From a virus, in IMG/VR virus record IMGVR_UViG_3300048115_000492, positions 1-40,362 of that record: 40,362 bases of DNA; one strand, given 5' to 3'. Under the pieces are notes generated by a model that made no database searches, had not been told where the DNA came from, and was given only the letters and a program-made list of their open reading frames with translations. Numbering within the stretch: position 1 is the stretch's first letter; every line of letters starts with the position of its first letter. Below are positions 1,038 through 40,108 of this stretch, piece by piece. The position numbers were made by a program, and so were the translations under genes.

Positions 1038-4000
1038 ATGTCTATACAAGTCCGAGATAATATTTACTCTGACATAGAAAGTCAGTTTCCAAACGTATAT
1101 AGAGAAAATAGTGAATTCTTTATAGCGTTTGTCGAGGCTTACTATCGCTATCTTGATCAAAAGAATGATCGAGATATTCCAAAGTTACGAGATATCGATA
1201 CAACTTTACCTACATTCTTTGTATACTATAAGAAGAAGTATCTTGCTGACCTTCCACTTGACTCAACTATTGATGTACCATTTATCGTAAAGCATATTAA
1301 TGATCTATACACAAGAAAGGGTACAAAAGAATCTCTTGAGTTATTGTTTAAGATGTTCTTCAATGAAGACATTACCGTAACTTACCCTGGCGGTAGTGTA
1401 CTAAAGCCATCTAATAGTCGATGGGGTGGTGAATCATTTCTTGAGATGAAGACTGTGTTTAGTGAAGATGGATATCCAATACAACGTGGTAATAGTATTA
1501 AGGGTGATCTATCAAGCGCAGAAGCATTTGTTGACGATATTGTATTTGTTAACTTCTCGGGCGCACTCACCCCCATTCTTTATATGTCAAATCTTAAAGG
1601 CACATTTGTGGGAGATGACTCGCTTGAAGTTATCTCTGCTACAAACGATGGAACAGAAACTATTATCAATGTTGGTAAACTAATTTCTGGTTCTGTATCA
1701 GGTGTAGAAATATCAAAAGCAGTACGACTACCAGAACAAAAACCTGGCGATACTGTTGATATCATTTCTAAAAAATCTGGTACTGGAGCAAAGGGTATTA
1801 TTACAAGTGCTTCCAAAACACAAGTAGGTAGTATTGATTATGAAATCATTGATGGTGGCTATGGTTATATTCAACCTAATACAAATGATTTCTCTAGTCA
1901 ACAAACTTTGGTAAGTAATCATGTTATTGTTCTAAGTGGTGACAATCCACATCCAACTTTAGAGGCGGGCGACACAATTGTATTCCCAGGTTCTACTGTA
2001 GACTATAATGGAAGAGATGAAACAAATGCGACACAGTATAGTGTAAATGGTAGTGCTATTGTAACTGAATATAGACATCCACTTTTGTTCATAAAAACAG
2101 AAACATCAAAAGATGACTTGTTCGATGTTTTCTCAGAATACTATTTTGGGCCTGCTATCTATCCATCTAATCTTTTGGTATCTGATGAGTATCCATATGA
2201 GGGTTTGAGTAATGGAGACCCTCATCCACTCGCAGGTCAACCATCTGGAGAAAATGTTGCACGAAATCTTTTCTATGATAATTTCGTAAACACTATGTAC
2301 ATTCGGGCTGGTAGTGAAGAACTTTTGAAATATCTAACTGAGTCACAACGTAAGTATTATTCCCAGTTCATGTCGCAACTTGAGCCTATTGACAAATATG
2401 GTGGAAATTTTTATAACGTACTTCTTGGTAGTGGAGACTTTAATGACCCCGTAGCAGAAACCAGTAATTTTAATGTTGATGCAGTGCAATTTTTTATTGG
2501 TTATCAAAACTCTATTAATAATGGCGTTGACGATGTAGACTTGTACAATCAGCCAACTGACTATGATAATTGGTTGGGGACTAATAGTATTAATCAGAAT
2601 AGCGAGGGTGAGATTAACGAAGCACTTCTTGCTACAGAGGTCGCTGATAGATTACCTACAATTTCACCATTTGTTACACAAGCAGTACTAAGTCAAGGAA
2701 TAAAATCTGGTCGATTAGATAAACTGATTGATGGTCAGTTGTATACCTTGACTCATCGTGGTAAAATTCTTACCGATGACGACTTTGCTAAGATAGGGTG
2801 TAATACTCCAGTAGTTGGTGAAGACTTTGTGTTCACATCAGCTAACTTATTAAACTTGTCTAGAGGTGGAGAACATCACAAGCTAGACAAGTATGACGCA
2901 ATCTTTACACCGCACAAACAAGTGATAGCAAAATTCCTTAAATTCTTTAATGCGCTTGGTTTGTATAATCAGATTACTATAGGTTCTACATTAGACACAC
3001 CACCAAATTTTCCAAATACAGTTACTGAATTTTACCCTGCAAATGATGAAGACGGCAATGCTATTGCTATTGGTGAACCTCATCCACAAGCAGGTCAACC
3101 AGACTATGGTTTTTATAATCAGTATATAGTGCCTGTTGAAAATTTAGTACCGGGTAGAAGATACTATATTCGTGATGTTGGAACAACATCTTTTGCTGAC
3201 TGGAACTTATTGGGGGCTCAGTTGGGTACAAGAACTACACCAAATGAAGTTTTCGATAAAGAACTTTCTACTCGCCCAATAAGTCCACTTCAAGAATACA
3301 TGATTACTGATCTTGGCGACACTACCAAAAATCAGTGGGAGCAAATAGGGTGGGTGGCAAACAGTGATGGACATGGTGATGAGCCTGCACAAGGTGATAA
3401 ATTCATTGCCCCAGATTTTGTCTACAGTAATTATACAGTAGAAATAGACTCTATTGTATCAAACGCATATGTGGTAGGGTCTGGTTCTACTGATAGTACT
3501 GGTGCAATAACAGGTCAAGATAGACAGATTCAAATAGATGTTGGTGATACAGTAACATTTAATAATGATGTTCACGAAACACACCCAGTACAAATTTTAA
3601 GTCAATTTGAAGCAGTAGAAACAATATCAGATATCTCTGACGCATCAGCTACAGACACTACTGGCGATAGTGATTTTATCATATCGGGTCACGGCTTTTC
3701 TAGTGGTGATGAAGTTACTGTGAGTTTTGGTAGTGGTACATACGCCGATCTAGAAACAAATAAAACTTATTATGTTAAAAGGGTTAGTAGCAGTAACTTT
3801 GAATTATACACTCAACAAAGAAACGCCGCAGGGAATTTTTTCGACCAATATCAAGTTTCAATCAATCCGGCTAATTTAACTGCTTCTCAAACCTTTGTTG
3901 CTGATACAGCACTATCCACCATTACAGCACAAGATGCTAATGGTACTTACAGTTGTGATCCAACTACTCTCAAGGTGGGCGATAGAATTACAGTCTCAGG

Positions 4001-7000
4001 TACTTTTGGTGGGACACCTGGATCAATCACTGGATACTCAGACTCGACAACTTATGCTGTTAGTAGCATAGTAACAGGCGCTTCCCCTAATGTCACTCGA
4101 TTCCAAATAGAAACTCTTGATGGTAATTCTGTTACTACTACGACTGGTGTGGTATCTGGAGCAACATTTACTCCACAGATTTTTGTACCTACATCAGTAA
4201 CATTTACTCGTGCTAGTGTAGTAGAAACATACGGCGTAACTGGTGCAGGCACTAATACAGTATCATTTACACCACTAACAAACAATGACTATTACTACGA
4301 ATCGGTAAATGATAGTGATCTTAGAGGTACTATCGTTGTTAGTGATAAGACAACTACAGATGATATGCCAAATGTATCGTCTACTGGTAAAGTTGCTGAC
4401 TTAAATCAATTACGAGAATTTGTGTATATTACTAGTAGTGAAGTTGGTGACACATTTGTTGCAACTGCACTAGCTGACGGTGTTACTGTAAGCGGGACTG
4501 GTCTGTGTGTAGATCATGCTAATGTCTTAACAGCAAGCAAATTTAGTGGATTTGGTGCATATACTGATCCATTAAAAGATGCAAGTGGACAGACACTAAA
4601 TGTATTACCGAGTGACTTACAAGCCACATCTTTCTTGGGCCTTATCAATGGTGACTATTTTAACCCGATTGAATGTCAAACCATAGGGCCTTACAATGCG
4701 TCATCTTCGTTTGATGTAACTCAGGTTAGTGATACTGAGGTCGTATCTATTACACCCGATATTATCGGCGATCATTTCCAAGAACAACTAGAGCCAAGAT
4801 ACTTTTTGACTGGGCTAACTGTTAATACTACAACAGGTCTATTCACACATGATGAGCAGATCATACCAACAGAAAAATATCTGTGGGTTGAAGGTCCGAC
4901 ACCACTCGGTAATATTGTTAATAATGAAGATTACTATCTAAGGCCTCTATCTTCTACCACATTTGAGTTATATGAAAATAGATCGGGTGATCCACCTTAC
5001 ACATATAGCAGTAAAGTTATACCTAGTGATAATAATGTAGATGGTCACGCTATAAGATTGCCTGTGCCTGCTCTGCTAGACCCCCAAAACTTTGATTCGA
5101 TTTATAATATGAGTGGTACGATTGGTGTTGAAAATTTTAGTACAACATATCAAGATGCGTTTGAAGAGAAGTTAATTACAATAGGTAGCATCACAGATAT
5201 ATTGGAAGATAGACCTGGTACAAATTATCAAAACGATGTTGGTGTTAGAGTTGTAAACGAACAGATTGCACAGTATGATTTGAGAGATTTAATCATAACT
5301 TTTGATAATGCACCCTTTAGTCTACAGACGGGCGATATAGTAATTCAAAAAATAAGATCACCATATGAGGGTCCTGAGTCTGACACTGAAGCAGACTACA
5401 TTAAGGGCGCTTTAACTTCTGATGCCACTAATGGCACATTGTTTGATAGAAGTATTGATGTCAACGGAATGAAAATTGTTTTGGCTGATGCAACTTTGAT
5501 TGATGCAAGCGGGCTCACAGACGCTGTTACAGACGAGTTCGGTAAAAAGGTTGCTAGAGTTGTGAGTTTGCTTACTGATAAAAGAGGCGCAGGTATCGAT
5601 GAAAGCGCACAAAGAAAGATGATCAAAATTCTTAATGGTAAGGGTGAGACTGATGATGGTAAAAAACGAATCGCACAAAGAGTTGCATATGGTTCTGCCG
5701 GTTCATATACACCAAACTTTATAACTAACCCAGCCGCATACTCTGGTTACACTTCTTTCTTGAATAGTCATAATACTAATGACACGATATTCTTTGAGGC
5801 AACCAATAGACCTTCAAGTGGCTTTGGTGTTGAGTCGATGACTGGTGCTTGGTCTACTATGCCTGGTCGTGCTAATGTTACTACTGGCACAGGTGTAAAT
5901 GTTGAAAGTGTGTTAAATGGCACTGGGCAAAATATATGTTACTTAAATGTTGATAATGTAGTACAAGGTAAATCTTACACGATAAACATTACTTCGACAG
6001 CAGACTCATCGCATAGTTTTACTTTAGTGGTGTACGATGGAGTAAACCCCAATAATCCAGACGAAACAGTTTTATCTCAAGCGATAGCCGTAGACTCCAC
6101 ACAATCAATTAATTTTACAGCATTATCTAGTAATACTTTCATTGCATTGATTGCAGGCTCAAGTAATAATACTACTATTGATGCAACTGTATCAGTCAAA
6201 GAAATTATAGACGGTCAATACGATGTCGAAAATGTTGTAGAAAATCTTTTACACACTTTCCATTTGTATGCTGTTAGAGGTGCTGTCGAAGGTAGTGAAA
6301 CTGCATTAAACTGGAAGGCAACTATCAATCCAAATTGGGAAAATACAGAACTTCATCTGGCAATGAAAGAAGCGATTGATAATGATATGTTCGATCCAAC
6401 TTCTTATGCGCCAAACTGGTTTAATGATCAAGCAGAAGCAGAGTCAGCATATAAAGAGTACTTGTATTTGTTGAACTGGAGTATGTGGGCGATGAGTGAG
6501 TTCTGGGTTGGTAGTAGTAAAGCACCACAATGGAACGATAGTATGCGTACTCCATTAGGTATAGAAGAAAACAACCCGCTTGGATATGAATTGTTTAATA
6601 CTTACATTGCTCCAGTATTAAGCAGACCAAACTTTATAACTCTCAGAGAAATGTTCAAACATAGTAATGGTGGAGTTTCTGGATATGTACCAACACCAGT
6701 AACATCTTATTTGTCTGCCAAAGAAATACAAGATTTAGCAGTTAGTTCTACAGAAGAAAGTATTAGGGCGTATAAAGTTAGTACTGGTGACAATTCTAAT
6801 CCACCAAGCTATGCTGAAAGTCAGACTATATTTAATCTTGAAGCAGAGCAGTACGATGTAAAATTGAAATACTTAAAGAGAGTGGGTACAGAGTTTTACT
6901 TCAGACCAATGAGTTTCTTTGGTGTACAAAATGATGTACCAATATTCATAAGATCAGAATTTAGAAATATTCTTACAGTAAGAAAAGATTTAGAATCTTT

Positions 7001-8540: not shown

Positions 8541-8558
8541 TAAATTTGGAAACGAATA

Positions 8559-10532
8559 ATGGCAAAGATTATAACAGAAAACTTTAAGATAGAAAATACG
8601 AATGAACTTTTCGATAGTTTGGATGATCAAAACTATTATGTTGTTGCGTCTAGAGCAATTACAAGAACAGAGGCTCAGATAACACCAAGCATTCAGAATA
8701 CTCAAGTATCTAAAAGAGATTTTTTGCGTAAGGTTATATTTGGTAGAAAACTAAGTACAGATAACGCAAGATATATGTTTGTCGAAAACCCTTGGGTTAA
8801 GGGTACTATTTACGACCAATTTGACGACACTCAAGATATCGAAACTTTAAACATGATTGTGACTATTCAAGAAGAAGGTAAAGATTCTTACTTAGTGTAC
8901 AAGTGTTTAGACAACAATAATGGCACACAGTCTCAAGAGATACCTGGTGTTGTCGATCCAACAAACTATCAGAGAACGAAAACTCAAGATGGGTATACTT
9001 GGCAATTCATGTTCAGAGTTTTACCCGCAGAGGTAGCTGATTTTAAGACTGCTGACAACTTACCACTACCAGTTATTGAGGGCGGGTATGGTGATAAAGA
9101 TGTAAAGAGAGAAGCGAAAGAAAATATATCAAATATTATTATAGAAGATACAATAGCGAGTCAGTTTAATCAGTATTTGTTTGGTGAGGCTACTAATATC
9201 AGTAACACTTCTGATGTTATCGTGGTTGACCCAGATACTTCGTCTTTGGGCGAATTTAGAAATATTACTGTAAGAGTGACAGCAAAAACTGGTAGACTTC
9301 TATACTCCGCCCCAGACGCATACAAAAATATGTATCTGAAACATGGTACAACTGGTAAACTGTATGATGTCGTTGCGTCTACATCTTCACCACAGATTAA
9401 TCAGATAACACTTAGAATTAAAAGTACCGATTTGTTTCTTGCACAACAAGTCTGTCAACTATTGATTAAGGTCAATGTAAGTTCTAGTTCACTTGTTGGC
9501 GAAAGGGCAAAGGCTTATCTAGAATTGGATGAATTTGGTACAGCTAAAAAAGTTTCATTCGAAACAAGAGGCGATGGTTACAAATCTGCAAGCGCACAAG
9601 TGGTGTACCCACCCCTACTGAAAAATTCAGCATCTGTTCTTAATAATCCAACACTGCTTCGTGCTATTGTTTCACCAAAAGGTGGTCATGGTTCAGACCC
9701 AATATCAGAAATGGCAATGAGTAAACTTGCCATAACTTCTACAATTGTTGGTACTAGTTTGTTTACTCCAGATGTTAACTTTTATTCGACTTTAGGTCTT
9801 GTTAAAAATCCAACATTTACCGATGCTAGTGGTGCTAGTGTAACGCCAGATGAATTCGATAACAGAACTATCCTAACAGTGTCTGGTGATCACATTGACA
9901 ATAGTGGAGATGAAATCACAGCAGATTCTCCATCACAGACTATACATAAACTTCTTCAGGGTGGCGGTGGAGTCGATAGTTATGTCGAGCAGTTTATAAA
10001 GACAATAAGTGTTCAAGAAATGGTTGATGGTGTGTCTTACACTATTGTAGACATGGGTACAGAGAACAGCCCCGCACAAATGGAGCAAAACGATTTCACT
10101 GCAATAGGTGCTTCAGGTGATAACATTGGTGTTGGTACTGTGTTTACAAGTACTAATACTGCAAGCATTTCGTCAATAAAAGACGGTAAGGTTTCTTTTG
10201 TTACTGATAGAGTTGATGTCACTTCGTCTACTTATGATTACAGTTTAGACATAGTAACCGCTAAAATACATGAAATTACTTCTGACGATAATAACACATA
10301 TATTCATCTGGTAGACTACGATGGAGATTTTGAGCATAAATTCCAAAAGGGTATTTTCTATATTAAACAAACTGAGTCAGCTACAGTCAGTATAAATAAT
10401 AAAACAACTAACACTATTTTGTATGGTCAATATGACGCATACTCGGGCGATCTATTACACTTTATAGATTTTACTCCTATCAATAGAAGCCCGACACGAA
10501 ACGAAAATATAAAGTTCACGTTTGATTTTTAA
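8559..10532 (+). CDS. 8: Baseplate wedge subunit gp8
   Basis: The N-terminal third is typical of phage gp8: VSKRDFLRKVIFGRKL, then VENPWVKGTIYDQFDD, then YLVYKCLDNNNG, then DGYTWQFMFRV (residues about 50-155). In T4, gp8 is a 334-residue dimer that joins gp7, gp10 and gp53 in the wedge. This one has 657 residues, in line with the enlarged forms of marine relatives. Residues about 488-533 hold a copy of the module that recurs through the window (DGVSYTIVDMG, then FTAIGASGDNIGVGTVFTST), so even a core wedge protein has accepted it. The start ATG at 8559 follows a GGAAACG sequence after an 18-base gap. The motif TATAAATA occurs in its 3' end (10391). Confidence 0.85.
   Translation: MAKIITENFKIENTNELFDSLDDQNYYVVASRAITRTEAQITPSIQNTQVSKRDFLRKVIFGRKLSTDNARYMFVENPWVKGTIYDQFDDTQDIETLNMIVTIQEEGKDSYLVYKCLDNNNGTQSQEIPGVVDPTNYQRTKTQDGYTWQFMFRVLPAEVADFKTADNLPLPVIEGGYGDKDVKREAKENISNIIIEDTIASQFNQYLFGEATNISNTSDVIVVDPDTSSLGEFRNITVRVTAKTGRLLYSAPDAYKNMYLKHGTTGKLYDVVASTSSPQINQITLRIKSTDLFLAQQVCQLLIKVNVSSSSLVGERAKAYLELDEFGTAKKVSFETRGDGYKSASAQVVYPPLLKNSASVLNNPTLLRAIVSPKGGHGSDPISEMAMSKLAITSTIVGTSLFTPDVNFYSTLGLVKNPTFTDASGASVTPDEFDNRTILTVSGDHIDNSGDEITADSPSQTIHKLLQGGGGVDSYVEQFIKTISVQEMVDGVSYTIVDMGTENSPAQMEQNDFTAIGASGDNIGVGTVFTSTNTASISSIKDGKVSFVTDRVDVTSSTYDYSLDIVTAKIHEITSDDNNTYIHLVDYDGDFEHKFQKGIFYIKQTESATVSINNKTTNTILYGQYDAYSGDLLHFIDFTPINRSPTRNENIKFTFDF
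10020..10157 (+). repeat. Recurrent module in gp8 (coding)
   Basis: MVDGVSYTIVDMG, then DFTAIGASGDNIGVGTVFTS. This is the copy closest to the form I recall from other marine phages (DFTAIGAS..N.VGT.FTA). Confidence 0.75.
10391..10398 (+). promoter_or_regulatory. Possible late promoter motif inside the end of gp8
   Basis: An exact TATAAATA lies about 150 bases before the ATG of the DUF4815-type gene. It is inside coding sequence (codons for S-I-N-N) and does not share the longer ACTATAAATATA string, so it may be chance in AT-rich DNA. Confidence 0.25.
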
Positions 10533-10549
10533 GGGAAAGAGTATAAAAC

Positions 10550-13500: not shown

Positions 13501-16500
13501 TACATTCGAAGACTTGACTTCGCTTTCTATCAAGACAGAAAAGAGTGTTGTGGTTGCTCAACCATATGCAACTGGGGTTAGAAACTGTGTATCTAACTAC
13601 TATGATTTTCAGGGCAAGGCGCATATCTACCCGAAATATACATATCATCGTGATGTGCTACTCAACCCTAAAATGAAAATTACCACAGAAATAACTTCAC
13701 AAGTTTTAGAGTTGGTTAAAAGAGTTCAAAAATTTGTTCCAGTAAATGTGGGTAAAAATAATTCTGCATTACATAGTGCATATGTTAATGCACTAACTAA
13801 ACAGAGAGGAACATATAAGGTTGGGTACAGATCACCTTTCGTCAAACAGGCGGCAGTGCAAATACTTAATGCCGCAAACAATGGTGAAAAGTATGACACG
13901 GCTAAAGATTTGGGTGGTTTTTTACAAGACAATACTGTTAGACCATATGTAAGAAGACATCTGATTAGAATTTCCGCTACTGGGTTAAGACCAAATACAA
14001 AACATTACTTCTTCTTTGGTGGTAAGAATGTAGACCCTCATGTAAGACAGTTTAGATACAGTTGGTTGAGATATTATCGCAGATATAGAAGAAGAGGTCG
14101 AGGTAGAGTCGGCTATAGATACGCATGGCACCCTAGATATTTGCCTTGGAGAAACTGGGCTGATTATTACTATGGTAGAAGAAGAGGTAGAAGAACATAC
14201 TACTATTCATATAGCAGTCAAAATGTATTCTCTGATTCTAGAGGTAGTCTGTTTGCTTATTTCTATGTACCTGCAGGTCAATTCTTAGTTGGTCAAAACA
14301 AACTAGAAATGTCTGATGTTTCAGATTACAGTCGTATTGGTAAAGATGGAACTTCTTATGCAAGTCAAACTCAAAGAGCGTATTGCAAACTCACTAACTC
14401 AGAGATAAGTAGTACCACTAGAGGTGTAGATGTAGATAGCGATACTTCAGTAGTGAAAAGAGAGTTTCAGGTTAAAAGACGAGACCCTATCGCACAGACA
14501 TTTAAATTGAGAGCATCTGGTACTGGTAATGCTAACTTTGGTTATCTGAGTGACATTAGTGTTTACTTTAAACAAAAGAGCGCAACTCAGGGTATAACTT
14601 TAGAAGTAAGAGAAGTAGAAGAAGGTGTACCAACACAAAAAGTATTACCTGGCGCAACTGCATACTTAGAGTCTGATGATATCAATGTTCATATTTTTGG
14701 TCAAACTGCATCAACTTTTGAATTTGAACACCCGATTAAACTAAAAGCAGATTTTGATTACTGCTTTGTTCTATTGCCCGATGGTGGTTCACCAGAGTAT
14801 TTGGTATTTACTGCAAAAGCAGGAAAGTTCAGTGTATCAAAAGGTGGAACATTTATTCAAGAAAGAGTTACTAATGATTGGGGTGACGGTGTTTTATACG
14901 CACCAACTAATGATAGTACTTGGAAGCCATATAGTGATGAAGACATGAAGTTCACTATCAATAGATATAACTTCAACCAAACTGGTACTATTGATCTCAT
15001 ACCTAATGATGTAGAATTTCTCACAATTAGAGATAATAAGAAGGACCCTGCGAATCAGGCGGGCACTTCTGCTTTCCTAGAGTTTGAGGAAGACGAGACA
15101 GTTTATGTTGAAACCAGTGCTTCGTTTAGTGGTTCTATAGGTAATAGGTCTGATGATGATCAAGAATCACCAGAAAAACTTGTTGTCAATTTATCTAGTT
15201 TGGGTAGTATTGCTGTCGATGTTGGTGATTACTTAATAGTAAAAGAAGTTCTTGCCGATGCTGACACAACACCAGATAAAATAGTTGGTCAAGTAGAAGC
15301 TATTGATGACGAAACAATTAGTCAAGATCAATTTAAAGTATTCACATTAGATACGCCTTGGTATGAACTTGATCCGGGAGAATCTTCGGAAGTTAGTGTA
15401 ACATTGGCTGTTACTGGTAAAGTTTCGTATTACGATCCAGAAAATCCAGAAGAAATACACTTGGATGAAAGTTCTGCTAGATATGGTAACTATTTTGATA
15501 ATTCAAGTGATCAAACATTTGGAGAGTTTCAGATAGGTCAACTTTACACGATAAGATCACTTGGTACGATTGATGGTGGAGTTGAGAATGGTGTTGTTCA
15601 GTCTTGGAAAGATGTCTCTGGTGATAGTTCATTCGTACCTGCTGTTGGTAAAACATTTATTGCGGCGGTCGCTGATTCTACAACTAATAGCAGTGCAGAT
15701 GGAACAGCAAGACCAAATAATCAAAGATTGATTGGTTTAGCTTCTGGTGCTGAAGCAACCATTACTAGATGTAACAGTCAAGGTATATCTTATTTCCAAC
15801 CAAGAGTACTGGTAGATAATACACCTAAAACTTCTCATAAAGTTGAGTTGTTTAAACTATCTGGTGATCAAAATGCGCCGTACAATTTAGATAAGCCTAT
15901 TGCAGAAAGCAGTGATGTTTATGTTTCTAATAATCCAAGAGTTATTGTTAGTAAGAGTAAGCAAATCGATAATCTTCCGGCACCACAGGGTAATCAAGAC
16001 ACTCCAACTATTAGTGAAGACTTCAGACTCAGAGTTACTCTGAATAACAATGAGTTTGATGCTGTTACGCCGACACTGGATGATGATTTGAGTAACTTGA
16101 GTGTTTACGAATATCAAATCAATGACTCGAAGAATGCACCTGCGTCTAGCTATATCTCTAAAGAAGTTATTCTGAATCCAGATATACCTGCCGAGGGGCT
16201 AAAAGTAATTATTGATGCATATAGACCACCGGGTACGCATATAGATGTGTATGCAAGATTTATCAATGCTAATAACTCTGATGAAAAAACTGACTGGGAA
16301 GAACTTGTAAACAAAGATCGTCAAGTATATTCTGCGTTGAATAATCAAGAAGATTATCGTGAGTTTGAATATAACTATACAGAACCTGATACTGAAACTC
16401 TTTATACTAGTTTCCAGATAAAGCTATCGTTTAGACATAGTACCTCTGCTGAATTGACAGACCCTGCATTTAGTGGTGTAGTTGTTTCGAAAAGTATATT

Positions 16501-16540: not shown

Positions 16541-16725
16541 TAAATGAAACTTTTGTGCGATCTGAAAGCGGTAGCGGTGTAGTTAACGCCGATGTCGTTT
16601 CGTATCAAAAAGCTAGGGCTAGAAAGAAACAAGATAAATATATCAAGGGGCTAGAGCAGAGAATAGAAAAATTAGAATCTGCTATGCTTCGACTAGAAAA
16701 CACTGTTAACGAGATAACGAAATGA
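16537..16725 (+). CDS. Small coiled-coil protein, unknown function
   Basis: A 62-residue protein with a basic middle (YQKARARKKQDKY) and a C-terminal heptad stretch (GLEQRIEKLESAMLRLENTV, about residues 39-58) that should form a short parallel coiled coil, probably dimeric or trimeric. It overlaps the gene before it and the gene after it by the same ATGA arrangement, so its translation is likely coupled to both. Coupling between a giant virion protein and a trimeric fibre suggests a virion adaptor or a fibre-assembly helper, but nothing in the sequence proves that. Similar short coiled-coil genes occur at this place in related phages as far as I recall. Confidence 0.7.
   Translation: MINETFVRSESGSGVVNADVVSYQKARARKKQDKYIKGLEQRIEKLESAMLRLENTVNEITK
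16633..16640 (+). promoter_or_regulatory. Weak late promoter-like motif inside the coiled-coil gene
   Basis: GATAAATA lies about 80 bases before the collar-fibre ATG. It matches seven of eight bases of the T4 late consensus. It is in coding sequence and could well be chance. Confidence 0.15.
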
Positions 16726-18389: not shown

Positions 18390-18392
18390 GCA

Positions 18393-18404
18393 ACTATAAA
18401 TATA
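18393..18404 (+). promoter_or_regulatory. T4-type late promoter motif before the beta-helix gene
   Basis: TATAAATA, the T4 late -10 consensus, lies in the 40-base gap before the gene at 18430. It is 28 bases upstream of the ATG, and an AAGGA Shine-Dalgarno match follows it at 18415. The 12-base string ACTATAAATATA occurs again at 22045 before the next gene but one. T4 late promoters need no -35 box, so none is expected. Confidence 0.6.
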
Positions 18405-18429
18405 GCATAATATCAAGGACAAATAGGAA

Positions 18430-21400
18430 ATGGCTAAAAAGTTTACAGACTTAGAACTAGCATCAGCACTCACAACTAATGATGTGATTGCAATTGTTGA
18501 CGACTCAAATTCTAGCAGTAGAAGAATAACTGCTGAGAATGTTTCTGACTATGTTCTTAGTCAGTCTACATTGAACGCCGAAACGAATAAGGGCAATCTC
18601 ATTACAGTACTTAATGGTGCAAGTAATGTAGCAAATAATCTTCGATCTAATTTTTTCTTTATCCCAGAAACTAATCAATATCAAGATGGTGACTTCTTTT
18701 TAGATTATAACAATCTACAAAACAAACCACTAAATTCAAATAATAACTCTGCTTTTATTAACACAGAAAAATTTGTTTCTCTTCGTGCTGATGGAACTGG
18801 GCCCACTCTTTTAAAATTTAGGAATGTAGCAGATGCGGGTAATTCCGGCACAGAGCAAACTGTTACAACAGATCACATTTTAGAAGGCGGTAATGCTAAT
18901 AAAAGATTCTACAAAGATTCCTTAGTTAACACTGCGATTACCAATGCTTTTGGTGGTTTATTTAATCAATATAGTAGTACATTTGATGGTGGTAATGTAA
19001 GTGATAGTCTTCAAGATGTTAAAGCAACGTGGGAAGGCTATCCTTCGCCTACCTCAGGCTCTGCTAAAAAGATACAAATACAAGATACTGAAAGACAACT
19101 ACAGTCTTCGTTTGCAGAGGGTCAGACACTTAGAGTTTATGGTGGCGATAGAGGCGATAACCCAACGGACATACCAACAGTATCTGCTAGTGTTGATGCG
19201 GCTAACGGTGTTTTTGAATATGTTACTACTGGTACAACTGGCGCATTAACAGTTAGATATAAACTTGCAATGTTCAATTTAAAGGATGGTCAAATAGGGC
19301 CCAGAACAATTATTCCCTGCGTGTCCGGTAACGCTAATAATCTTAGTATTATAAGACACAATAATTTTGCCGATGGTGATACTGTACAAACAGTTAAAAA
19401 CTTATTTAATCCAACAAACTATATTGAAATTGATATCGATAGTGACCTAGCTAACCGAGGCGTGTGCGTATGGAGACAAGTAGGTGGTGCGGGTCCATAT
19501 AAACTAACTGCGATTCTAGGCCCTAAAGACCTTGCTGGCGGTGGTTTATGGAGAGATTATTATGCGTTTGACTACACAGCATGGTCTGGTAAAGACGAAA
19601 CAGATAATACATATCTAGCACCAACCAGTGACTTAGTGGGCGGTAGAAATGTAATACACTTCCCCCATCAAATAGGTGAAGTTACTGATCAAGATGACGA
19701 TGGTCTTAGGGGTTGGGTTGATGTTGTAATTCAAGCTGATGGTGCAACACCAGGTGTTGATATCAGTGCAGATGATGGTACTATTACGCTTAATGTAGCA
19801 ACTACTGATGACCTAGTGAGTATTAATGGAAGTGCATTTCCAGTCGAAGCCATAGGAAATACTTGCTATGTTGCCCATAATGACACAGAGAAACTTCAAA
19901 GTGCTATTGACAGTAAAGCAGATGCAGATCAAAGAAGCCTAAATCTAAACGGAAAAACATATAACGCAACTCATATAAAAATCCCTGATAGATTTGGTTT
20001 GACCGGTATAACAGGTATTTCGAAAATCAGAAAACTACCATTCAGTGGTCACACATCAGGCGTTAACACTGGTTTAGGTTCATATGACAACTCGCTTATA
20101 AAAGCAAAAGAATCAGTTAACTCTACACAAATATCTATTTCGGGTGTAGATTTTGAAGGTAACAATAGAAATCAATATTTGCTACAAGATGCTACTGGTA
20201 ACACCTTTATGGATTTCGGTATTCAGTCTGATAGTATTTTAATACAAAATTGTAGAATAAGAGATGTGGTTGGAGAGGGTATTAATGCAAGTTCACCTAC
20301 AGCATTTAAAATGCTTGCTTGTGAAATATCAAATAGTGGTACTACAGATAGACACGAATTTTCACCACTAACGATTGATGATGGTGAAAACACTATTGTA
20401 ACAGGTAATCTGATTCAGAATTATACCAATTTTATCGATGCTTCTGTTACTAAGCAAGGTGTTATTGCTAATAACATTATTAAAAATTTGACTGGTAATA
20501 TACAAGATGGTGAAGAAAACACTGATGTCGGGTCTGCTATATTTACATATGGTTCTACCTTCTTACTCAGTAGTCCCAATGTGATGATGGGTCCGTCTAA
20601 TGAATTTTTGACTAGCCCAGATGTGTTTAACTCAGAATTTGACGCTGTTAATATACTTAGAAGTAACATGAACAATGCACAAAATGCAGGCGATGATTAC
20701 GAAAGTGATATATTTGTGTATCAGGAAAATGGTGCTGTATTCGATCTCACTCAAGATAGCGTTCAGAGTACTGGCGGCACAATAAAGTATAGAACAAATC
20801 TAATAAGAAAATTAGGTGATGCGTCTAACTCGACTGAAGAAATATATGGAAACTTAGTTGGGCCGGGTGCTAGAGATATAAGAAACAATAGCTTCTTGAC
20901 AACCAACATATCCAATTATGGTTTGATTCAAGGTGAAACATATGAGATCAAAGTAGTTGGTAACACAGATTGGTCAAGGGCTGGCGCAGTTGCTAATATA
21001 GTTGGTACAGAATTTTTATATAACGGCAATGCGCTTAAACAGATAGACGGTACTACCAATCCAACATCTGGTACAGTTAGTCCTGGCTTTGCAGTACAAT
21101 ATCAAGATCGAGGCACAGCGGCTTTGACTGATGTTACTCTAATTAATAGTAATGGTGTTGTTCCTCAAGTCGGTACTGATATACAAGTTGGTGATAAAAT
21201 TACTGTGAGTGCAAGCACCCCCAGTGCCGCACCAGACCTAGTTACAGGGACATTTGCGGTCACTGCTAGAAATGGTAACGGAGATGAGTTTACTATAGCC
21301 GGTGCGGGTGACGCCACCGCAACGGAATTTGGCGATGCGGGAGTTCAGTTACATAAAGTTGTAGTGCAAAATAGCATATCGTTCGCTAATTTTAGTTCTG

Positions 21401-26913: not shown

Positions 26914-26916
26914 TTT

Positions 26917-34000: not shown

Positions 34001-35201
34001 ATCAACTGAGAAAGATTCTGATTTAGTTGATTTTGGGTCTGATGTACAGCATGGTTCTACCCCTGCGGTAGGCGATCACTTCAAGTACAATTATCTCGAT
34101 GTCGATAATATAATACCAGGTATGTACTATATGATTCAAGATGTTGGATCAATGACCACAGCACAATGGCAAAATTTAGGTTGGGCCGCTAATACGCCTT
34201 ACGCTGATCCTTATAATAAATTAAGAGGCAGACAAAGCAGTGTATTCACTCATGGTTACGAATTCTGTACAGGGTCTCAACCTAAAAGGGGTGACTTCTT
34301 TAGATGTCCACCAAGTAAGACTGGTTTGAATAGAGCAATTTTAGGTTCATTAACTAACGGCGCTGAATATAGAATACTTAGAAGTGGTTTTACAGGTTCT
34401 GGTAGTTATCAATATGACTTTAGGAATCAGGGTGCATCTAATAATAATGTGGGTACTGTTTTTACAGCAGACACATCTAACGATGCGACAATCAATTCGA
34501 ATACTAATTCGACTTATGGTACATTCAGGGTGGCAGAAAGAACTACTTATTCGGATTTAGGCGATGGTAAGATTTCTCGGGTGTCAACAAGTACCTTTGT
34601 CCAAGGCGTTCAATTTCTTGGATTCAGAGGAAGTTTAGGTGATTTGCAAAATATGAGTCAATTGCAAGATTTAAGAGTTTATAATAACTCTTTTTCTGGA
34701 CAATTCCCTAATCCAATAGCACCAGCTTTGAAAGATTTATACGCTCAGAATAATTATTTTAGTGGTAATGTTCCAGATATGAGTGACTGTCCTATTCTAG
34801 AAGAACTCAAACTAAATAATAATGATATAACGGGGTATGTCTCGCAAAGTTTAAGATTTAATACGAAAGCGACTCTAGTAGATTTGAGTGAAAACAGACT
34901 CCCTGCGTCTGTGGCTGGCGACTTAATAAACGATCTGTGGTTTATGGCTACGCCAAACACACCAAGAAAGGGTATAACTGTTAGACTTAATGGTCAAAAA
35001 GGGTTCGATCCTGGCACTAACGAAGACTACTTAGACAATAATGGATTTGCTACAAGATTATCTGTACAGGCGTTGATAGATATACCTGGCTCTGGTGATG
35101 ATGATAATCTTGATGTAAACGGGCTTCCGCTTCATCCATATCGAAGATACTTGTCCTTAATTGGAGCATTCCAATGGGATATAGAGATAGACGAAACATA
35201 G
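31020..35201 (+). CDS. Leucine-rich-repeat virion protein (putative adhesin)
   Basis: A 1393-residue protein. The start (ALIDIDDKKASLANLGL, then DDLDLLRNL) is of the attachment type seen in marine phage fibres. LRR-like segments occur in several blocks: about residues 376-422 (NLKELELLYNQFKYIPNL, then LEKLKISYNPL), 715-757 (LDFSDNPLLKSLWLENC), 904-943 (NLDQLWIYECNQWGKVPSLS) and 1202-1307 (QLQDLRVYNNSFSGQFPNP, LKDLYAQNNYFSGNVPDMSD, LEELKLNNNDITGYV, LVDLSENRLP). The last block follows the L..L.L..N..G..P form of plant and bacterial LRRs. Inserted modules break the series at residues about 537-610 and 1030-1154. LRRs commonly bind proteins or glycans, so receptor recognition is a fair inference. 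A start overlapping the previous stop implies coupled translation. Confidence 0.7.
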   Translation: MAIIRGLNVSKALIDIDDKKASLANLGLRIDDLDLLRNLVRDADLNIFDFHQIAGLVDNQLRLFSSQQVCANTADSDVENMNEVDSKQRYNLAVDDRLIAGAIKYNYVDFVTPNLAPIVVTQINGTTISGSNLDTVEYNGKTYTLSAGDKIRITDTGSSVTSGDYEINSVSSSQIVLTSSASSGAVTDFTNIVVSFIIEWPVRSADISTSRVSSWSPIGPENAPDSYITYGGELVVDGEYLALTKLGVTSQPVEKQFRAEVPTHTIKLNINGSDVQLPVIKGIPLEFISSGANYAYIRLGRSANTPAITDNEGVIPATFKVSNLSIPSATPLVYDRNVSSTTTQTVFSYGLNTTNKYKAEVYYPPNNIGFLSVYRFGVKDFPNTKMENLKELELLYNQFKYIPNLKSLTPSLEKLKISYNPLHSAVNYLEDLDLGHLDGVYQVTEEFVDNDLRQIVSQKQLDNLPISIKEVEAINAFRGSINLNTEHLPNCVKFQIYATSSSQANRITWPFESPRGADPGTAIEFNPSTTDVYEVTNNVARFKLSNHQLSTGDVVKYDFHAYPLDTDDDPTVGVGVDNMGQALGGLTGGELYDVAKISDNEIELRDRSSGVAPTSSAYTALKGELHSFVKWNTTDNDIFIDTNKAPGFEEMKLSYASYQFLSRHICNSPALEIIDFDSTPIKSIGRTPYVTRGGVEGDANRLKSNSDRKIYFKSKVLTSIKLRYYRANLNLDFSDNPLLKSLWLENCRPDRFWGDSQRTINASMLNNCPALTTIKFKYLYQSLTGSERVRANIDSILRNKPNLTLYDEYYNAGVHINLDDNTLSGNGGSLQTFSSYAHSGGRGFGGFEYNSDYFAIDGSNNRTGLCFEACKGSMTNLKVRFQYHKHVRLVNDDDLSNVIKVPISDMSNLDQLWIYECNQWGKVPSLSNLSKLNRIWLYNGKSQRAPAIQSFGENNIFSIRVLPNNSQYGNGTTLSAINQYGYFLPKEYEDMGWSSTEKDSDLVDFGSDVQHGSTPAVGDHFKYNYLDVDNIIPGMYYMIQDVGSMTTAQWQNLGWAANTPYADPYNKLRGRQSSVFTHGYEFCTGSQPKRGDFFRCPPSKTGLNRAILGSLTNGAEYRILRSGFTGSGSYQYDFRNQGASNNNVGTVFTADTSNDATINSNTNSTYGTFRVAERTTYSDLGDGKISRVSTSTFVQGVQFLGFRGSLGDLQNMSQLQDLRVYNNSFSGQFPNPIAPALKDLYAQNNYFSGNVPDMSDCPILEELKLNNNDITGYVSQSLRFNTKATLVDLSENRLPASVAGDLINDLWFMATPNTPRKGITVRLNGQKGFDPGTNEDYLDNNGFATRLSVQALIDIPGSGDDDNLDVNGLPLHPYRRYLSLIGAFQWDIEIDET
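32145..32285 (+). repeat. LRR block 1 (coding)
   Basis: The segments MENLKELELLYNQFKYIPNL and PSLEKLKISYNPLHS follow the LRR pattern L..L.L..N.....P..L, about 23 residues apart. Confidence 0.65.
32628..32849 (+). repeat. HG-type module in the LRR protein (coding)
   Basis: FKLSNHQLSTGDVVKYDFHA, then LTGGELYDVAKISDNEIELR. It is set between LRR-like blocks and carries an extra loop. Confidence 0.5.
34107..34310 (+). repeat. Recurrent module, LRR-protein copy 1 (coding)
   Basis: IIPGMYYMIQDVGSMTTAQW, then QNLGWAANTP, a long loop, then RGDFFRCP. It lies between LRR blocks. Confidence 0.65.
34347..34481 (+). repeat. Recurrent module, LRR-protein copy 2 (coding)
   Basis: LTNGAEYRILRSGFTGSGSY, then FRNQGASNNNVGTVFTADTS, immediately after copy 1. 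Confidence 0.65.
34623..34940 (+). repeat. LRR block 4, the clearest (coding)
   Basis: Four consecutive units are readable: LQDLRVYNNSFSGQFPNP, LKDLYAQNNYFSGNVPDM, LEELKLNNNDITGYV and LVDLSENRLPASV. They show the L..L.L..N.F.G..P form. Confidence 0.8.
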
Positions 35202-35210
35202 GTATTATAA

Positions 35211-37361
35211 ATGGCTCAAGGATTTGTAAAAAATTTAAATTTAGTAGAAAGTTCTAGTCGACCTAGTGACGCTGGCATACTAAACAATTTGGGTGGATTA
35301 GGTATTGCTGATGATATTGGATTGTTTGATGGTAATACTAAATTCAAATCTAGATTGGTAAATGACCCTAACTTTATAGGTAGAGTTAAAAACTATGGAT
35401 TTTTTGAAGAAGGTGTTCAGTACAAAATTCTTGTCTTAGGTGAAGATAGAGGGTGGCCTGCTGTTGGTTGGCAAGCAAATGACGGGCAAACAGGGGAAGC
35501 CCCAGAAGTAGACGACTTATTCACTGCCAACTTTTCTGGTGAAAATTTACCGGGTGTTGGTGGTATTGCTGTTGAAGTTCTAAACAGACGAGATATGAAT
35601 GCAGAAAATGATCCAATTGATGGTTGGACAATCGTCACAGATATTTTAGATGGTAAAAACGCATTTACTGATGGAACCCTACTACAAAAAGATAATGAGC
35701 CTGGCTTTAACTATGAAGTGTTTAATAGTGATGGTAATAGTAGATTTCAAATACGATCTGTAGCAACACAGCAAACTTTAGACTTGAGCGATATCGCTAC
35801 ATTCAAGCTAACAAGAACTGATGCAATAACCACAGAAAATGTACGAAAACTTATCGTAGCATCACCACCAATTCGAGGTGAAGTACAGTCTGAAGATGAC
35901 GAAGTAGAGCCATATCCAAGCCCGTTTGACCCTGATGGTCGAATTGAGTCAATAGAAGGTGTAATTTCTAACATAAACTTCAAAAAAAGTAATGTTGTTC
36001 TGTCATATAGAAATAACTTTTTTGATCTTGAAAGTGGTGTTGTATTTGGTGGTGCGATATCCGTAGAAAATCTTTCAAGTATAAGAATTGGTATCGATAC
36101 TGATTTTAATCAACTTGTTGTGGGCGAGTTATATCAAGTAGTTGCTCTAGGCACTGGTGCTTTTTGGGATCAGGTTGGCGCAAATGTTATTGATGAGAAT
36201 GTATCACCAGTGTCTTCTGGATCATTTGACACTACATCAAATGATGGTGGTGGTGTAATATATGTCATAGAAAATTTAGGCGTTGATGCAAGAGGAACTA
36301 ATGGTGCGTTCACATTTGGTGTGGGCGATATGGATGGAGGCTCAAATGAAATTGATCTTGGTAGTGGTCATGGTCTTGTAGTTGGCGATAAACTAAGATT
36401 GACAAAAACAGCAGACGATGACAATATATCTGGTTTACCAGTTAATGCTGATTATTTTGTGGTCGCTGTAGTCGATGACGAAATACAGCTTTCAACATCA
36501 TCGGGTGGTAGTATTCAAGAGTTTGAAACTCCATCCACTGGCACAAACTATACATTGACGATTGACCCACAAAAAGCATGGAATGTCATAGGCAACACTT
36601 CATCTTTAAATAGTGGAGCGGGTATTACTTATGAAGTGGGTGATTTCTTTACAGCTAACACTAACGGTTCTACTATTTCTAATGCTGTAGTATACCCTGT
36701 AATATTTAAAGCAACTGCTGTAGTTAATACTTCAGGTACTAATGGTAAAGCAAAGGCTCTAGAGCCACCTGGTCTATACATTCATAATGTAATGACTGAC
36801 GAAGCAAAAAGAGCATTTACTGGTAAAGATAACCCTTGGCAGGATAGTAATGTTACAATTGCAAATACAGTTGGTGGTGCTTCTTATAGTTTATCTGCAT
36901 TGACGACTAGTTCTGCTGTTGCTCAGGCAGGGGACTTCAATCTTAAAAGATCAGATGAGACTGATTGGGGAAGTTTTATTCCAGGTGAGAACTACACTAT
37001 CACTGATATTGGTAATGGTAGTAGAGACTGGAATGCTCTTGCAAACACCACAGGGCTAAATTATGAAGTAGGTGATACGTTTGAAGCCTCAGTTGATGGT
37101 AGTTCTCTTAACGCAGGGAGTGGTGGTAAAGCTATTGGTGAGCCTAAGTTAATATTTACAAATGAAAACCAGAATAGTGATAACGGCACATATGGCAATG
37201 ATGGTCTTGGAGATTTTAGCGGAAACATACAAGCGTCTGGTGCTAACATCACACACAAAATACCAATATATGTAAACGATGAGTTATATTATCTTTGCGC
37301 TTCATCAACGCCAACAGATGTTACAAATGGAGACTACAAGATTCTAGTTAAGCCAGATTAA
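35211..37361 (+). CDS. Virion protein built largely of the recurrent module
   Basis: A 716-residue protein with no recognised enzyme motif. It contains the recurrent module at least three times (EEGVQYKILVLGEDRGW..., VVGELYQVVALGTGAFW..., IPGENYTITDIGNGSRDW...) and a half copy (KAWNVIGNTSSLN ... VGDFFTANTNGS). It also has one HG-type module (GSGHGLVVGDKLRL ... ADYFVVAVVDDEIQLS). The N-terminus (KNLNLVESSSRPSDAGILNN) resembles those of the LRR protein and the minus-strand protein, so it may dock at a similar site. The start is nine bases after the LRR gene stop, so it probably ends the plus-strand operon. Its stop codon lies two bases from the stop of the convergent gene. Confidence 0.6.
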   Translation: MAQGFVKNLNLVESSSRPSDAGILNNLGGLGIADDIGLFDGNTKFKSRLVNDPNFIGRVKNYGFFEEGVQYKILVLGEDRGWPAVGWQANDGQTGEAPEVDDLFTANFSGENLPGVGGIAVEVLNRRDMNAENDPIDGWTIVTDILDGKNAFTDGTLLQKDNEPGFNYEVFNSDGNSRFQIRSVATQQTLDLSDIATFKLTRTDAITTENVRKLIVASPPIRGEVQSEDDEVEPYPSPFDPDGRIESIEGVISNINFKKSNVVLSYRNNFFDLESGVVFGGAISVENLSSIRIGIDTDFNQLVVGELYQVVALGTGAFWDQVGANVIDENVSPVSSGSFDTTSNDGGGVIYVIENLGVDARGTNGAFTFGVGDMDGGSNEIDLGSGHGLVVGDKLRLTKTADDDNISGLPVNADYFVVAVVDDEIQLSTSSGGSIQEFETPSTGTNYTLTIDPQKAWNVIGNTSSLNSGAGITYEVGDFFTANTNGSTISNAVVYPVIFKATAVVNTSGTNGKAKALEPPGLYIHNVMTDEAKRAFTGKDNPWQDSNVTIANTVGGASYSLSALTTSSAVAQAGDFNLKRSDETDWGSFIPGENYTITDIGNGSRDWNALANTTGLNYEVGDTFEASVDGSSLNAGSGGKAIGEPKLIFTNENQNSDNGTYGNDGLGDFSGNIQASGANITHKIPIYVNDELYYLCASSTPTDVTNGDYKILVKPD
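35397..35540 (+). repeat. Recurrent module, 716-residue protein copy 1 (coding)
   Basis: FFEEGVQYKILVLGEDRGWP, then AVGWQANDG ... VDDLFTANFSG. Confidence 0.65.
36111..36239 (+). repeat. Recurrent module, 716-residue protein copy 2 (coding)
   Basis: LVVGELYQVVALGTGAFWDQ, then VGANVIDENVSPVSSGSFDT. The first half is clear and the C-terminal half has drifted. Confidence 0.6.
36339..36512 (+). repeat. HG-type module in the 716-residue protein (coding)
   Basis: GSGHGLVVGDKLRLTKTADD, then NADYFVVAVVDDEIQLSTSS. Confidence 0.55.
36573..36671 (+). repeat. Recurrent module, half copy in the 716-residue protein (coding)
   Basis: KAWNVIGNTSSLNSGAG, then ITYEVGDFFTANTNGS. Only the W..G ... VGD.FTA half is present. 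Confidence 0.55.
36975..37106 (+). repeat. Recurrent module, 716-residue protein copy 3 (coding)
   Basis: FIPGENYTITDIGNGSRDWN, then ALANTTGLNYEVGDTFEAS. Confidence 0.7.
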
Positions 37362-37363
37362 CT
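37346..37363. terminator. Weak hairpin at the convergent stop codons
   Basis: AGTTAA and TTAACT form a six-base-pair stem around a GCCAGA loop. The stem includes the TAA of the plus-strand gene and reaches the stop of the minus-strand gene. It is AT-rich with only a short T run after it, so it is a poor terminator by itself. It is the only candidate at this junction. Confidence 0.2.
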
Positions 37364-40108
37364 TTAGCCACCAGGTGCGGTGTATGTTATAGGCATATAC
37401 TTATCTGTAGTTATAATAGTACCGCCGGCAATTTCAGATATACTATTTTCCGGCAATGTAAATGACAACTTAGAAAATCTCAACTCTTTAGCGATAACAT
37501 TCGGTCTATTAGGTGGAGTTTTCAATCCCTTAGTAGTACTCTCCCAAGGCGGTGCTGTGTTCAATGGTATGATACAATATTCTTTGTTTTCTCCATTCCA
37601 ACCATTTTGGGTGGGCACACCCTGATTATTGATTTCGCCCGCACTTCTTGATACAAACACAACTGTCGACCCCTTAACGAGGGCACCACTTATCGGCGCT
37701 GATAGCGTTACTGTTTTTGTGGAAGTATCAACCGCCGTTACTGTCGTGCCATGCGGGATTACACCATCAAAATAAATAAAATCTGCTAGTGATGCACTAG
37801 CGTTAGGTGTGATATTGTCAACATCAGATACTACAATTGATTGTGCCCCACTCTGATAAGTATTCATTACTTCTTTACCAATTACACCATTACACTCTTG
37901 TATAGTTGATCTATCACTAATACCTCTTGATCTATGTACAACAACAACGCCGTCAGTGGCGTTTATATCTGTTACACTTGATTCTGGATTGTTTTCAATC
38001 GTAATAATAGACTCTAGTGATGCGGGGATACCATAATGGTCTGTGCTTTTAACTCTGAACCCGTATTCATTGATGTCACTATTTGCGCCAGATGCACCTG
38101 TGAAGTTTACTTTGTATATTAAATCATTTTCTGTCACTGTGTTCGCAAAAGAACCAAATGCTTTTGGCGCCCTGTTAATCGTTTGAATTTGATGCTCGAC
38201 ACCTGCACCCGAGTCATTATCGGCATATTTGAAAACACCAACAAGACCTTCATTTTTAATAATTAGCACCTCAAACGCAGTATCTGGAGCAATATTAGTT
38301 AAATCGAAAAATTCGATTGGAAGAGATATGTAATGATAGTCACTATCTCGACTAGTAATTTCAACTTTAAACGCCCAGTAATTGTTCGCACCAGGAGGTT
38401 TTAATACTACGACATCGCCTTTATTCACTCCCCCGATTTTAGATGTAGCTACAGCCTCTTGATGTCTACCAGAACTATTGAGAGATAAAGTGTGTGAGAC
38501 AATCTCATTATTAGCACTGTCAAATAAAGTGCTTTGAGTTACAGATGATGATTTAAGTGATGGAGTGAACTCGTTTCTCAATGTGTTAATGACTTTTAAC
38601 TCAAAATCTGCTTTTTCGTTTGTCGGCCCTGCTCTATTGTCTCTAAAGAATGGATAACTATATCTTTTGCTAGAAAAATCTTGAGTCTGTTGGATTGGAT
38701 AAAATCTTGTATAACCAAACTCTGTATTGTTTGTTTCTTCTGCCTTTTTCACTCCACTAGCAGTGCCACCCTTTGCAACGCTAGGCCAGTAATGCGTATA
38801 TCTTACTCTTCTTCTGGCACCTCTATTTGGTGCAGTAATACCTAGTGATGGAAACTCAATTTCATCGTCTTTTGGCGAGAAAGAAAATATTATCTCATCA
38901 GTACCTGTAGCATCAGTGATATTGAAATCGTCAACAAGCGTTATTTTAAAATTGGTTCTGCTCATCGACTCTACTACAGATGTATAGTTTGACCCAGTGG
39001 CTGGGTCTGTAGTGTTATCGAAGGTGACAGTCATACCTAGCCCGACTCTACTCCAGTCGTGTCCATTACTCTGACAAGTTAAAACTGTTTTTCCATCTAC
39101 AGTTTCGTATGATATAGTTTCGTATGCTCTAAACTCAGGTTGTAATGTCCCTCTTACAAAACGCCAATTGCTTTCTACCGATTCGTTTTCAATTAAGTCT
39201 TCTTCTACAAGAAAACAACCAGTAATTAATATTTTGGCGTTAAAGCCACCATCTTGATATCCAGTGTGCTGAACAGCACCATTTCTATCAGAGAAAGATA
39301 TATCGAGTTTAGATGGATAGAAAAAGTCACCAGTACCGGGCCAGTAGTCTTCTGGGGTTATTATTGCTGGCACCTCTGCATTAAATATTTTTGTATGTAA
39401 CTCAGTTGGTTTCAACTGATTTGCGGCAACTTCATCAATTGCAAACGCATATGATGCCCTAGGTAAAGAAACATTTCTTACAGATGAACTGCTATATGTT
39501 GATGTTCCATCTATACTTGCAGTAAATATGTCGCCAACAGAATATGATCCACCAGATGCACCAGAGAGAGTATCCCATTGAGCGTCACTGTTATTATTAG
39601 TAACAATTTTATATCTTTGACCAGAAATAACATCATCACCATCAATAATAGATCCAATTTGTTGAGAAGAACTGTTTATTCTTTCTGTCGGAATTATCTC
39701 TGTAACAGGGCCGCTTCCACCATTAACAAATGGTGGATCACCAAATACAGTCTTAAATTTATTAAGATAGTCCTGCATTGTGACCTGAGGCTGAATAGGT
39801 TTGCTTGTGATAATTGATGGATCATTAGGATCAGCTATATCTATAAATGGTCGTGTATCTTTAAGATCAGTTAAAGCATAAGGTGGTACACCTGGCTGGG
39901 TGTAGTCGTATGTTTCATCTAGGTCGCTCTGAGAAAATATTCTTAGTGGTTCTATATCAGAAAGAGTAAATCCAGTAGGGTTGCCATCTATATCATTAAC
40001 GCTTGTCAGATCATTAATGACATTGGCGAGTGCCGTGCCTGAATCAGTTAGATCAGCTAACGCCCTATCTGCTCTCAATCCAAATTTTCTATACTTTCTA
40101 GATGACAT
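37364..40108 (-). CDS. Virion structural protein on the opposite strand (putative fibre/baseplate)
   Basis: A 914-residue protein. Its N-terminus (LRADRALADLTDSGTALANV, then FTLSDIEPLRIFSQ) is of the attachment type seen in marine phage fibre proteins and resembles the N-terminus of the LRR protein. Residues about 160-203 hold the recurrent module (ISGQRYKIVTNNNSDAQWDT ... VGDIFTASIDG). A weak HG-type unit follows (SNGHDWSRVGLG ... TNFKITLVDD). The rest is beta-rich (FFYPSKLDISFSDRNG; VRYTHYWPS) with no catalytic motif. The ATG at 40108 is preceded on its strand by AAAGAGAG about seven bases upstream. It runs convergent to the whole plus-strand cluster and shares a strand with the small gene upstream of it. 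Confidence 0.65.
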   Translation of the reverse strand: MSSRKYRKFGLRADRALADLTDSGTALANVINDLTSVNDIDGNPTGFTLSDIEPLRIFSQSDLDETYDYTQPGVPPYALTDLKDTRPFIDIADPNDPSIITSKPIQPQVTMQDYLNKFKTVFGDPPFVNGGSGPVTEIIPTERINSSSQQIGSIIDGDDVISGQRYKIVTNNNSDAQWDTLSGASGGSYSVGDIFTASIDGTSTYSSSSVRNVSLPRASYAFAIDEVAANQLKPTELHTKIFNAEVPAIITPEDYWPGTGDFFYPSKLDISFSDRNGAVQHTGYQDGGFNAKILITGCFLVEEDLIENESVESNWRFVRGTLQPEFRAYETISYETVDGKTVLTCQSNGHDWSRVGLGMTVTFDNTTDPATGSNYTSVVESMSRTNFKITLVDDFNITDATGTDEIIFSFSPKDDEIEFPSLGITAPNRGARRRVRYTHYWPSVAKGGTASGVKKAEETNNTEFGYTRFYPIQQTQDFSSKRYSYPFFRDNRAGPTNEKADFELKVINTLRNEFTPSLKSSSVTQSTLFDSANNEIVSHTLSLNSSGRHQEAVATSKIGGVNKGDVVVLKPPGANNYWAFKVEITSRDSDYHYISLPIEFFDLTNIAPDTAFEVLIIKNEGLVGVFKYADNDSGAGVEHQIQTINRAPKAFGSFANTVTENDLIYKVNFTGASGANSDINEYGFRVKSTDHYGIPASLESIITIENNPESSVTDINATDGVVVVHRSRGISDRSTIQECNGVIGKEVMNTYQSGAQSIVVSDVDNITPNASASLADFIYFDGVIPHGTTVTAVDTSTKTVTLSAPISGALVKGSTVVFVSRSAGEINNQGVPTQNGWNGENKEYCIIPLNTAPPWESTTKGLKTPPNRPNVIAKELRFSKLSFTLPENSISEIAGGTIITTDKYMPITYTAPGG
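39500..39631 (-). repeat. Recurrent module in the minus-strand protein (coding)
   Basis: VISGQRYKIVTNNNSDAQWD, then TLSGASGGSYSVGDIFTAS. Its second half is close to those of the 716-residue protein, the neighbour on the other strand. Confidence 0.65.

Follow-up and report, generated by a model that had tools for sequence, protein, structure and literature searches.

A small in-frame module, almost certainly a mobile insertion domain, in virion proteins of a T4-like phage and of many uncultured phages

Module copies in a baseplate and fibre region

The window, by which we mean the whole 40,362-base virus record analysed here, spans the part of a T4-like phage genome that codes for baseplate and fibres. 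It encodes the end of gp6, gp7, a YHYH protein, gp8, a DUF4815 protein, a gp10-like protein and a beta-helix protein, together with large proteins of 1602, 1367, 1393 (LRR) and 716 residues (p1602, p1367, LRR, p716) and a 914-residue protein on the minus strand (minus914). The assignment of gp8 to the T4 gp8 baseplate wedge family is firm: the profile of its orthologues matches 1n7z (E 1.1e-22), and its predicted model matches the same structure by fold (E 4.8e-7).

Distributed over seven of these virion proteins are 13 copies of a small module (Table 1) with the canonical form AGSFVxGxxYTIxxVGTTDFTAIGAxxNTVGxxFTATGAGSGTGTA. The profile that defines the family (Y.I, G, (T)D[FW], IG, VG..F.A) recovers its members above shuffled sequences. 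With leave-one-protein-out profiles, the copies in minus914, p716, LRR, gp7, gp8 and DUF4815 were recovered at 12.7-33 bits, compared with 3.5-7.3 bits for the best of 200 shuffles per recovered protein, and the beta-helix copy (6.2 bits) and the second LRR copy (5.8 bits) were marginal. Circularity was removed by an external HMM seeded with a single DNA pattern for DFTAIGA, which occurs once in the window and matched at least 120 viral-contig stretches; this HMM was built from 97 non-redundant copies, all from other viral contigs. The scores that it gave to the beta-helix, gp8 and second LRR copies (Table 1) compare with a maximum of 7.5 bits in shuffled sets (n = 100), and after iteration it added a third gp7 copy. 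The other window-type copies, in an alignment that left out the beta-helix, gp8 and LRR copies found by the external HMM, matched the external-only alignment profile to profile with a probability of 95.6% and an E of 1.2e-8.

Recovery of the copies above background, as proposed in the initial annotation, therefore holds for leave-one-out and external profiles alike, with some corrections to the inventory. Eight virion proteins had been listed, and the module is real in seven of them. The weak copy suspected in p1602 scored -0.4 bits against shuffles of up to 8.0, and it was rejected since window-type profiles, external-seeded profiles and the sister protein were all negative. In gp7 two copies had been seen and the one at residues 562-603 overlooked. 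In p716, to which three and a half copies had been ascribed, the 'half' is better read as a copy that lacks its second half (p716-b) and a complete copy split by an insert of ~90 residues (p716-c), whose score rises upon rejoining. Leave-one-out profiles gave no reliable recovery of two further suspected repeat families in the window, of a VGD and a GHG type.

Table 1. Positions of the module copies in the window, with scores and conservation
Feature	Position	Strand	Residues	Remarks
gp7-0	2721..2846	+	562-603	iterated external profile 15.1 bits; sister copy 37.2 bits, same site
gp7-a	3129..3251	+	~698-738	second half weak or absent; leave-one-protein-out 19.9 bits; conserved in L001, L252
gp7-b	3282..3431	+	~749-798	leave-one-protein-out 19.8 bits; sister copies 28-33 bits
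gp8 copy	9996..10190	+	480-544	within ~185-residue insert (437-621); external profile 18.4 bits, leave-one-protein-out 18.5 bits
DUF4815 copy	15512..15700	+	1655-1717	leave-one-out 12.7 bits; kept in L001, L252, G043
beta-helix copy	20902..21081	+	825-884	external profile 24.4 bits, 38.8 once iterated; structure predicted
LRR-1	34095..34319	+	~1026-1100	long internal loop; leave-one-out 21.2 bits; conserved in G001/L342
LRR-2	34338..34499	+	~1107-1160	external profile 15.4 bits, 32.8 once iterated
p716-a	35394..35570	+	~62-120	leave-one-out 18.4 bits; G043 orthologue without copy
p716-b	36102..36200	+	~298-330	second half lost; 2.1 bits in window; sister 19.7 bits (external-seeded profile)
p716-c, first half	36243..36296	+	345-362	rejoined halves 22.5 bits, sister 27.2 bits
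segment inside p716-c	36297..36566	+		~90 residues, GHGLVVGDKLRL...YFVV type; between strand 1 and helix in window and sister
p716-c, second half	36567..36680	+	453-490	leave-one-out 9.1 bits alone, 22.5 bits rejoined
p716-d	36960..37130	+	584-640	leave-one-out 32.8 bits; cleanly absent in G043 orthologue
minus914 copy	39482..39649	-	154-209	leave-one-out 30.2 bits; G043 orthologue has two

For the beta-helix copy, a model of 61 residues predicted with 92 natural copies aligned reached a mean pLDDT of 80 (core ~90) and contains a strand (14-19), a helix (25-28) and two further strands (38-40, 52-55). Compared with the PDB it gave no fold match, although a query of only 61 residues has little power there, and all but one of its 10 matches in BFVD (probability ~1) are uncharacterised and come from uncultured phages or viruses, the exception being a named YHYH-domain protein. 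The expectation that the copies fold alike is thus borne out in part: this representative is predicted to be a small beta-rich domain, and profile-profile comparison shows the other window-type copies to be its homologues. In the AlphaFold2 model of whole gp8, residues 1-436 and 622-657 are mostly confident and the module-bearing stretch 437-621 is not; this fits an insert in the predicted fold, with the module in place not resolved. The alignment behind this model was an alternative version, used because the one with module rows added misplaced orthologues. Glycines, hydrophobic core residues and a likely helix cap make up the near-invariant positions of the module; as they look fold-defining, they point to no binding or catalytic site.

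The region holds several other features besides the module. A stand-alone YHYH protein (PF14240, E 2e-26; 7584-8540) lies between gp7 and gp8, and in PHROGs the YHYH domain is part of large virion or baseplate wedge proteins in other phages. The gp7 of a sister contig (L001:1387-6897) has a cupredoxin-like stretch around residue ~865 with an intact blue-copper-like pattern (H...YYYQCENHENM); in the corresponding domain of the window gp7 (3534-4376, residues ~833-1113) those residues are gone and an insert of ~200 residues is present. Further downstream in the window gp7 (~5769-6215, residues ~1578-1726) lies a segment that resembles a binding-module jelly roll (GKSYTINITSTADSSHSFTLVVYDG) and is absent from the sister gp7. 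The adjoining p1602 and p1367 (22105-31020) share paralogous segments with 42-43% identity over ~115 residues, comparing window with sister copies. In another sister contig, residues 735-828 of the protein at L342:15070-19248 resemble residues 951-1045 of the window gp7 (35% identity, E 1e-12), and residues 113-191 of its LRR protein resemble residues 1208-1287 of p1602 (49% identity, E 1e-8). Such segments common to differing virion proteins suggest, at the level of sequence, that more exchangeable blocks may exist; leave-one-out profiles within the window alone gave no confirmation of them.

Occurrence among phages and host proteins

Among the viral-contig matches listed for the DFTAIGA pattern, 106 of 120 carry the module, and with further patterns the collected set comprised at least 340 copies in at least 252 open frames. 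No true copy was present among the 120 bacterial and archaeal genome matches listed, which included one weak match of 19 residues, and the plasmids searched gave no match. Using tblastn with single module copies, a search that diverged members may escape, we found the module in 3 of 50,697 phage records, namely Cyanophage S-TIM54, an isolate on Synechococcus WH8102 with a single copy, and two uncultured Caudoviricetes. Some of these queries gave no phage record and others three, and the best match of a copy from the 716-residue protein had an E of 6 or worse. Two phage records have 19 and 20 copies. In G004 and G009 (loci L010, L017, L052, L343 and L344), several of the 19-20 copies are tandem or truncated. 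No close relative turned up when viral contigs were searched with a peptide pattern of p716, whose relatives were reached via the sister contigs. Additional module-bearing genes with no counterpart seen in the window occur in sister contigs (L342:250-1413 and G043 26445-27413), so the window may undercount the copies of this phage.

Clustering of the 109 host proteins from the first scan gave at least 35 groups among the matches listed. The hosts that could be typed comprise tail fibres, central fibre J, baseplate wedge, head-tail adaptor, minor tail L, distal tail and internal virion proteins, a pectate-lyase-type spike and one amidase; all are virion or lysis parts, and many hosts are untyped. 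When 45 unrelated host proteins were aligned jointly, the module alone lined up. No model in Pfam, NCBIfam or PHROGs matched module sequences above its cut-off, and none of the papers searched contained the core sequence. Judged by the sequences searched, the module is a phage-only domain, common in uncultured phages, with at least 35 protein contexts that are unrelated to one another. Its near-absence from phage records and from all family libraries searched means that annotators miss it, despite its abundance in environmental phages.

Insertion sites and relocation of the module

With modules masked, which removed false empty-site matches passing through an adjoining module, 103 of 228 testable copies, from 15 independent host clusters, have a homologue that runs straight across the junction. 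The module is lacking in 42 of 46 gp8 orthologues, which are generally shorter at the site, and the gp7 and DUF4815 orthologues in T4-like contigs outside the window clade gave no module match. G043, a more distant relative, has a p716 orthologue devoid of every p716 copy; it keeps the beta-helix and DUF4815 copies, and its minus-strand protein contains two. Taken alone, empty sites agree with loss as well as with gain; for gp7, gp8 and DUF4815, gain is the simpler reading because of the wide absence in other T4-like contigs. Going by these alignments, the module is an insertion in its host proteins.

At 41-70% protein identity, nearly all sites are retained in the sister contigs L001-L003 and G001, and the insertions of the window lineage are therefore mostly old, with some turnover. 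The identity of the module between window and sisters is variously above or below that of the remainder of the protein. By sequence comparison, copies within the window clade are mostly inherited and not currently moving, with some gain and loss.

A change of position of the unit itself is visible in one event, between the close relatives L012 and L070, whose gene A products share 91% identity near the site. At the DNA level, gene A is 73.9% identical before the insertion point (L012 base 3930) and 87.8% identical past it, across 566 aligned positions. The gene A of L070 has a net 156 extra bases that hold one module, and that of L012 lacks them. Gene B of L012, which adjoins gene A, contains the unit with 88.3% identity over 154 bases between unrelated flanks, and gene B of L070 is ~150 bases shorter at the unit site. 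A unit of 150-156 nt has recently been relocated between these neighbouring tail genes, in one or the other direction. Among 256 distinct copies, terminal inverted repeats or target-site duplications did not exceed the end repeats of mispaired controls, and ordinary recombination is therefore the simplest route. In three further pairs (L037/L038, L348/L390 and L361/L353), the module and its flanks differ several-fold in synonymous divergence, a mismatch that hints at in-place replacement of modules, presumably by recombination.

Several ideas of the initial annotation are supported by these data. The view of a mobile or repeatedly recombined domain agrees with the orthologues of gp8, gp7, DUF4815 and p716 that lack it at the same sites and with the relocation visible in the DNA, and a discrete plug-in domain is indeed carried by wedge proteins as well as by peripheral fibres. 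What had been suspected to be an unusual virion design of one phage is, in contrast, common across many uncultured phages. Contact with capsule, host glycan or other particles, as also proposed there, is a tentative idea.

Possible role of the module

Taking all observations together, we consider it probable that the module is a phage insertion domain which is spread by recombination and retained for weak repeated contact. The parts of this reading differ in strength, with a mobile insertion domain being almost certain and the contact function, argued by analogy, credible though tentative. The domain would be phage-only and measure ~46-52 residues, with a strand, a short helix and two strands predicted for the representative, and many virion proteins would accept it in frame within a loop or linker, with the host fold left intact. 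Ordinary phage recombination, illegitimate or homologous from copy to copy, would account for its spread, since transposon-type ends and target duplications are lacking. We infer that a compact domain displayed many times may be retained for weak, repeated contact with polymers of the cell surface or the environment, in the manner supposed for Ig-like domains and carbohydrate-binding modules. Against the contact role stand hosts such as the head-tail adaptor and the internal virion protein, which are not obviously receptor-facing, and against the reading as a whole it counts that clean relocation at the DNA level is a single case and that copies of the window clade mostly stay put.

Selection on the module bears on the alternatives. 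The pooled dN/dS of 33 independent ortholog pairs is 0.126 for the modules and 0.143 for 80 flanking codons. As the value is as low as in the host protein, the module is not neutral. Moreover, every synonymous codon is in use at the TDFTAIGA core across the family, which confirms the drift of the copies at the DNA level that had been proposed earlier and, together with the low dN/dS, indicates that the family is kept as a protein. Purifying selection fits ligand binding and fold maintenance equally, and it could reflect the cost of misfolding only. A stabilising spacer or inter-subunit contact, which strengthens or lengthens virion proteins and has no external ligand, would agree with selection acting on the fold, with the fold-defining look of the conserved residues and with inner wedge and adaptor proteins among the hosts. 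We nonetheless regard it as unlikely, given that orthologues manage without the module at the same sites, so that it is not needed for assembly, and that no interface is common to the host contexts. Purifying selection argues against the module being selfish or neutral coding sequence that survives solely through tolerance in loops. Such a passenger would explain the very different types of host protein, the up to 20, sometimes tandem or truncated copies per record and the relocation as a unit; it is quite improbable in view of the low dN/dS, the module ends without inverted or target-site repeats and the fact that nearly all typed hosts are virion proteins and not genes generally. That there is no separate module, merely convergent short beta motifs, ordinary parts of host domains or chance, as the weak copies (p1602, p716-b and, in leave-one-out, the beta-helix copy and LRR-2) and the insert left unresolved in the whole-gp8 model might suggest, is highly implausible, because the external profile beats shuffles on the window copies and the profile-profile match is strong, unrelated hosts align on the module only, and clean empty sites and a relocated DNA unit contradict it.

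In comparison with known systems, the recombining insertion domain that we favour partly resembles the Rickettsia palindromic elements, which likewise insert in frame into unrelated proteins and are of similar size; unlike these, the module has no inverted-repeat ends, is conserved as a protein and is free in its synonymous codons. The closest analogue in behaviour are the Ig-like domains of phages (Big_1, Big_2, I-set and FN3), promiscuous small beta domains that occur in several classes of virion protein, for instance as an internal insertion in the YSD1 tail tube protein, and are thought to make accessory surface contacts (PMC9022992). The restriction to virion structures is shared by the typed hosts of the module (plus one amidase), with many hosts untyped. 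However, the module has only ~46 residues in a predicted strand-helix-strand-strand order, is in frame in all copies analysed here, is mostly internal and is almost confined to uncultured phages, and neither a Pfam or NCBIfam match above the cut-off nor a PDB fold match places it among Ig, Big or FN3 domains. Reusable bricks also decorate the virions of 936 lactococcal phages, whose neck, tail and baseplate proteins bear carbohydrate-binding modules, and such bricks can bind hosts (PMC6669499). In contrast to these, the module is known from sequence and a predicted model and has no sequence or fold match to a carbohydrate-binding module; a single copy reached 13.1 bits with CBM_5_12 (cut-off 26.2), and a single copy likewise 17.4 bits with DUF4766 (cut-off 27). 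Domain mosaicism in phage proteins involves shuffling among tail, baseplate and other proteins, and much more of it is expected where domain libraries are thin (PMC10684548). The module, by contrast, is absent from the libraries searched, and one small unit spans many types of virion protein.

That a new phage-only domain with no PDB relative found runs as a self-contained unit through nearly every virion class and thereby gives these phages a shared, repeated binding surface is a doubtful proposition. The module nevertheless offers a clear and testable case of particles being rebuilt from exchangeable bricks, including an in-frame relocation that is resolved to ~150 bases, and splitting it out would allow a cleaner annotation of many very large, seemingly unique virion proteins. 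If the idea of binding is true, the module would indicate that phages of uncultured bacteria in aquatic habitats share a surface target.
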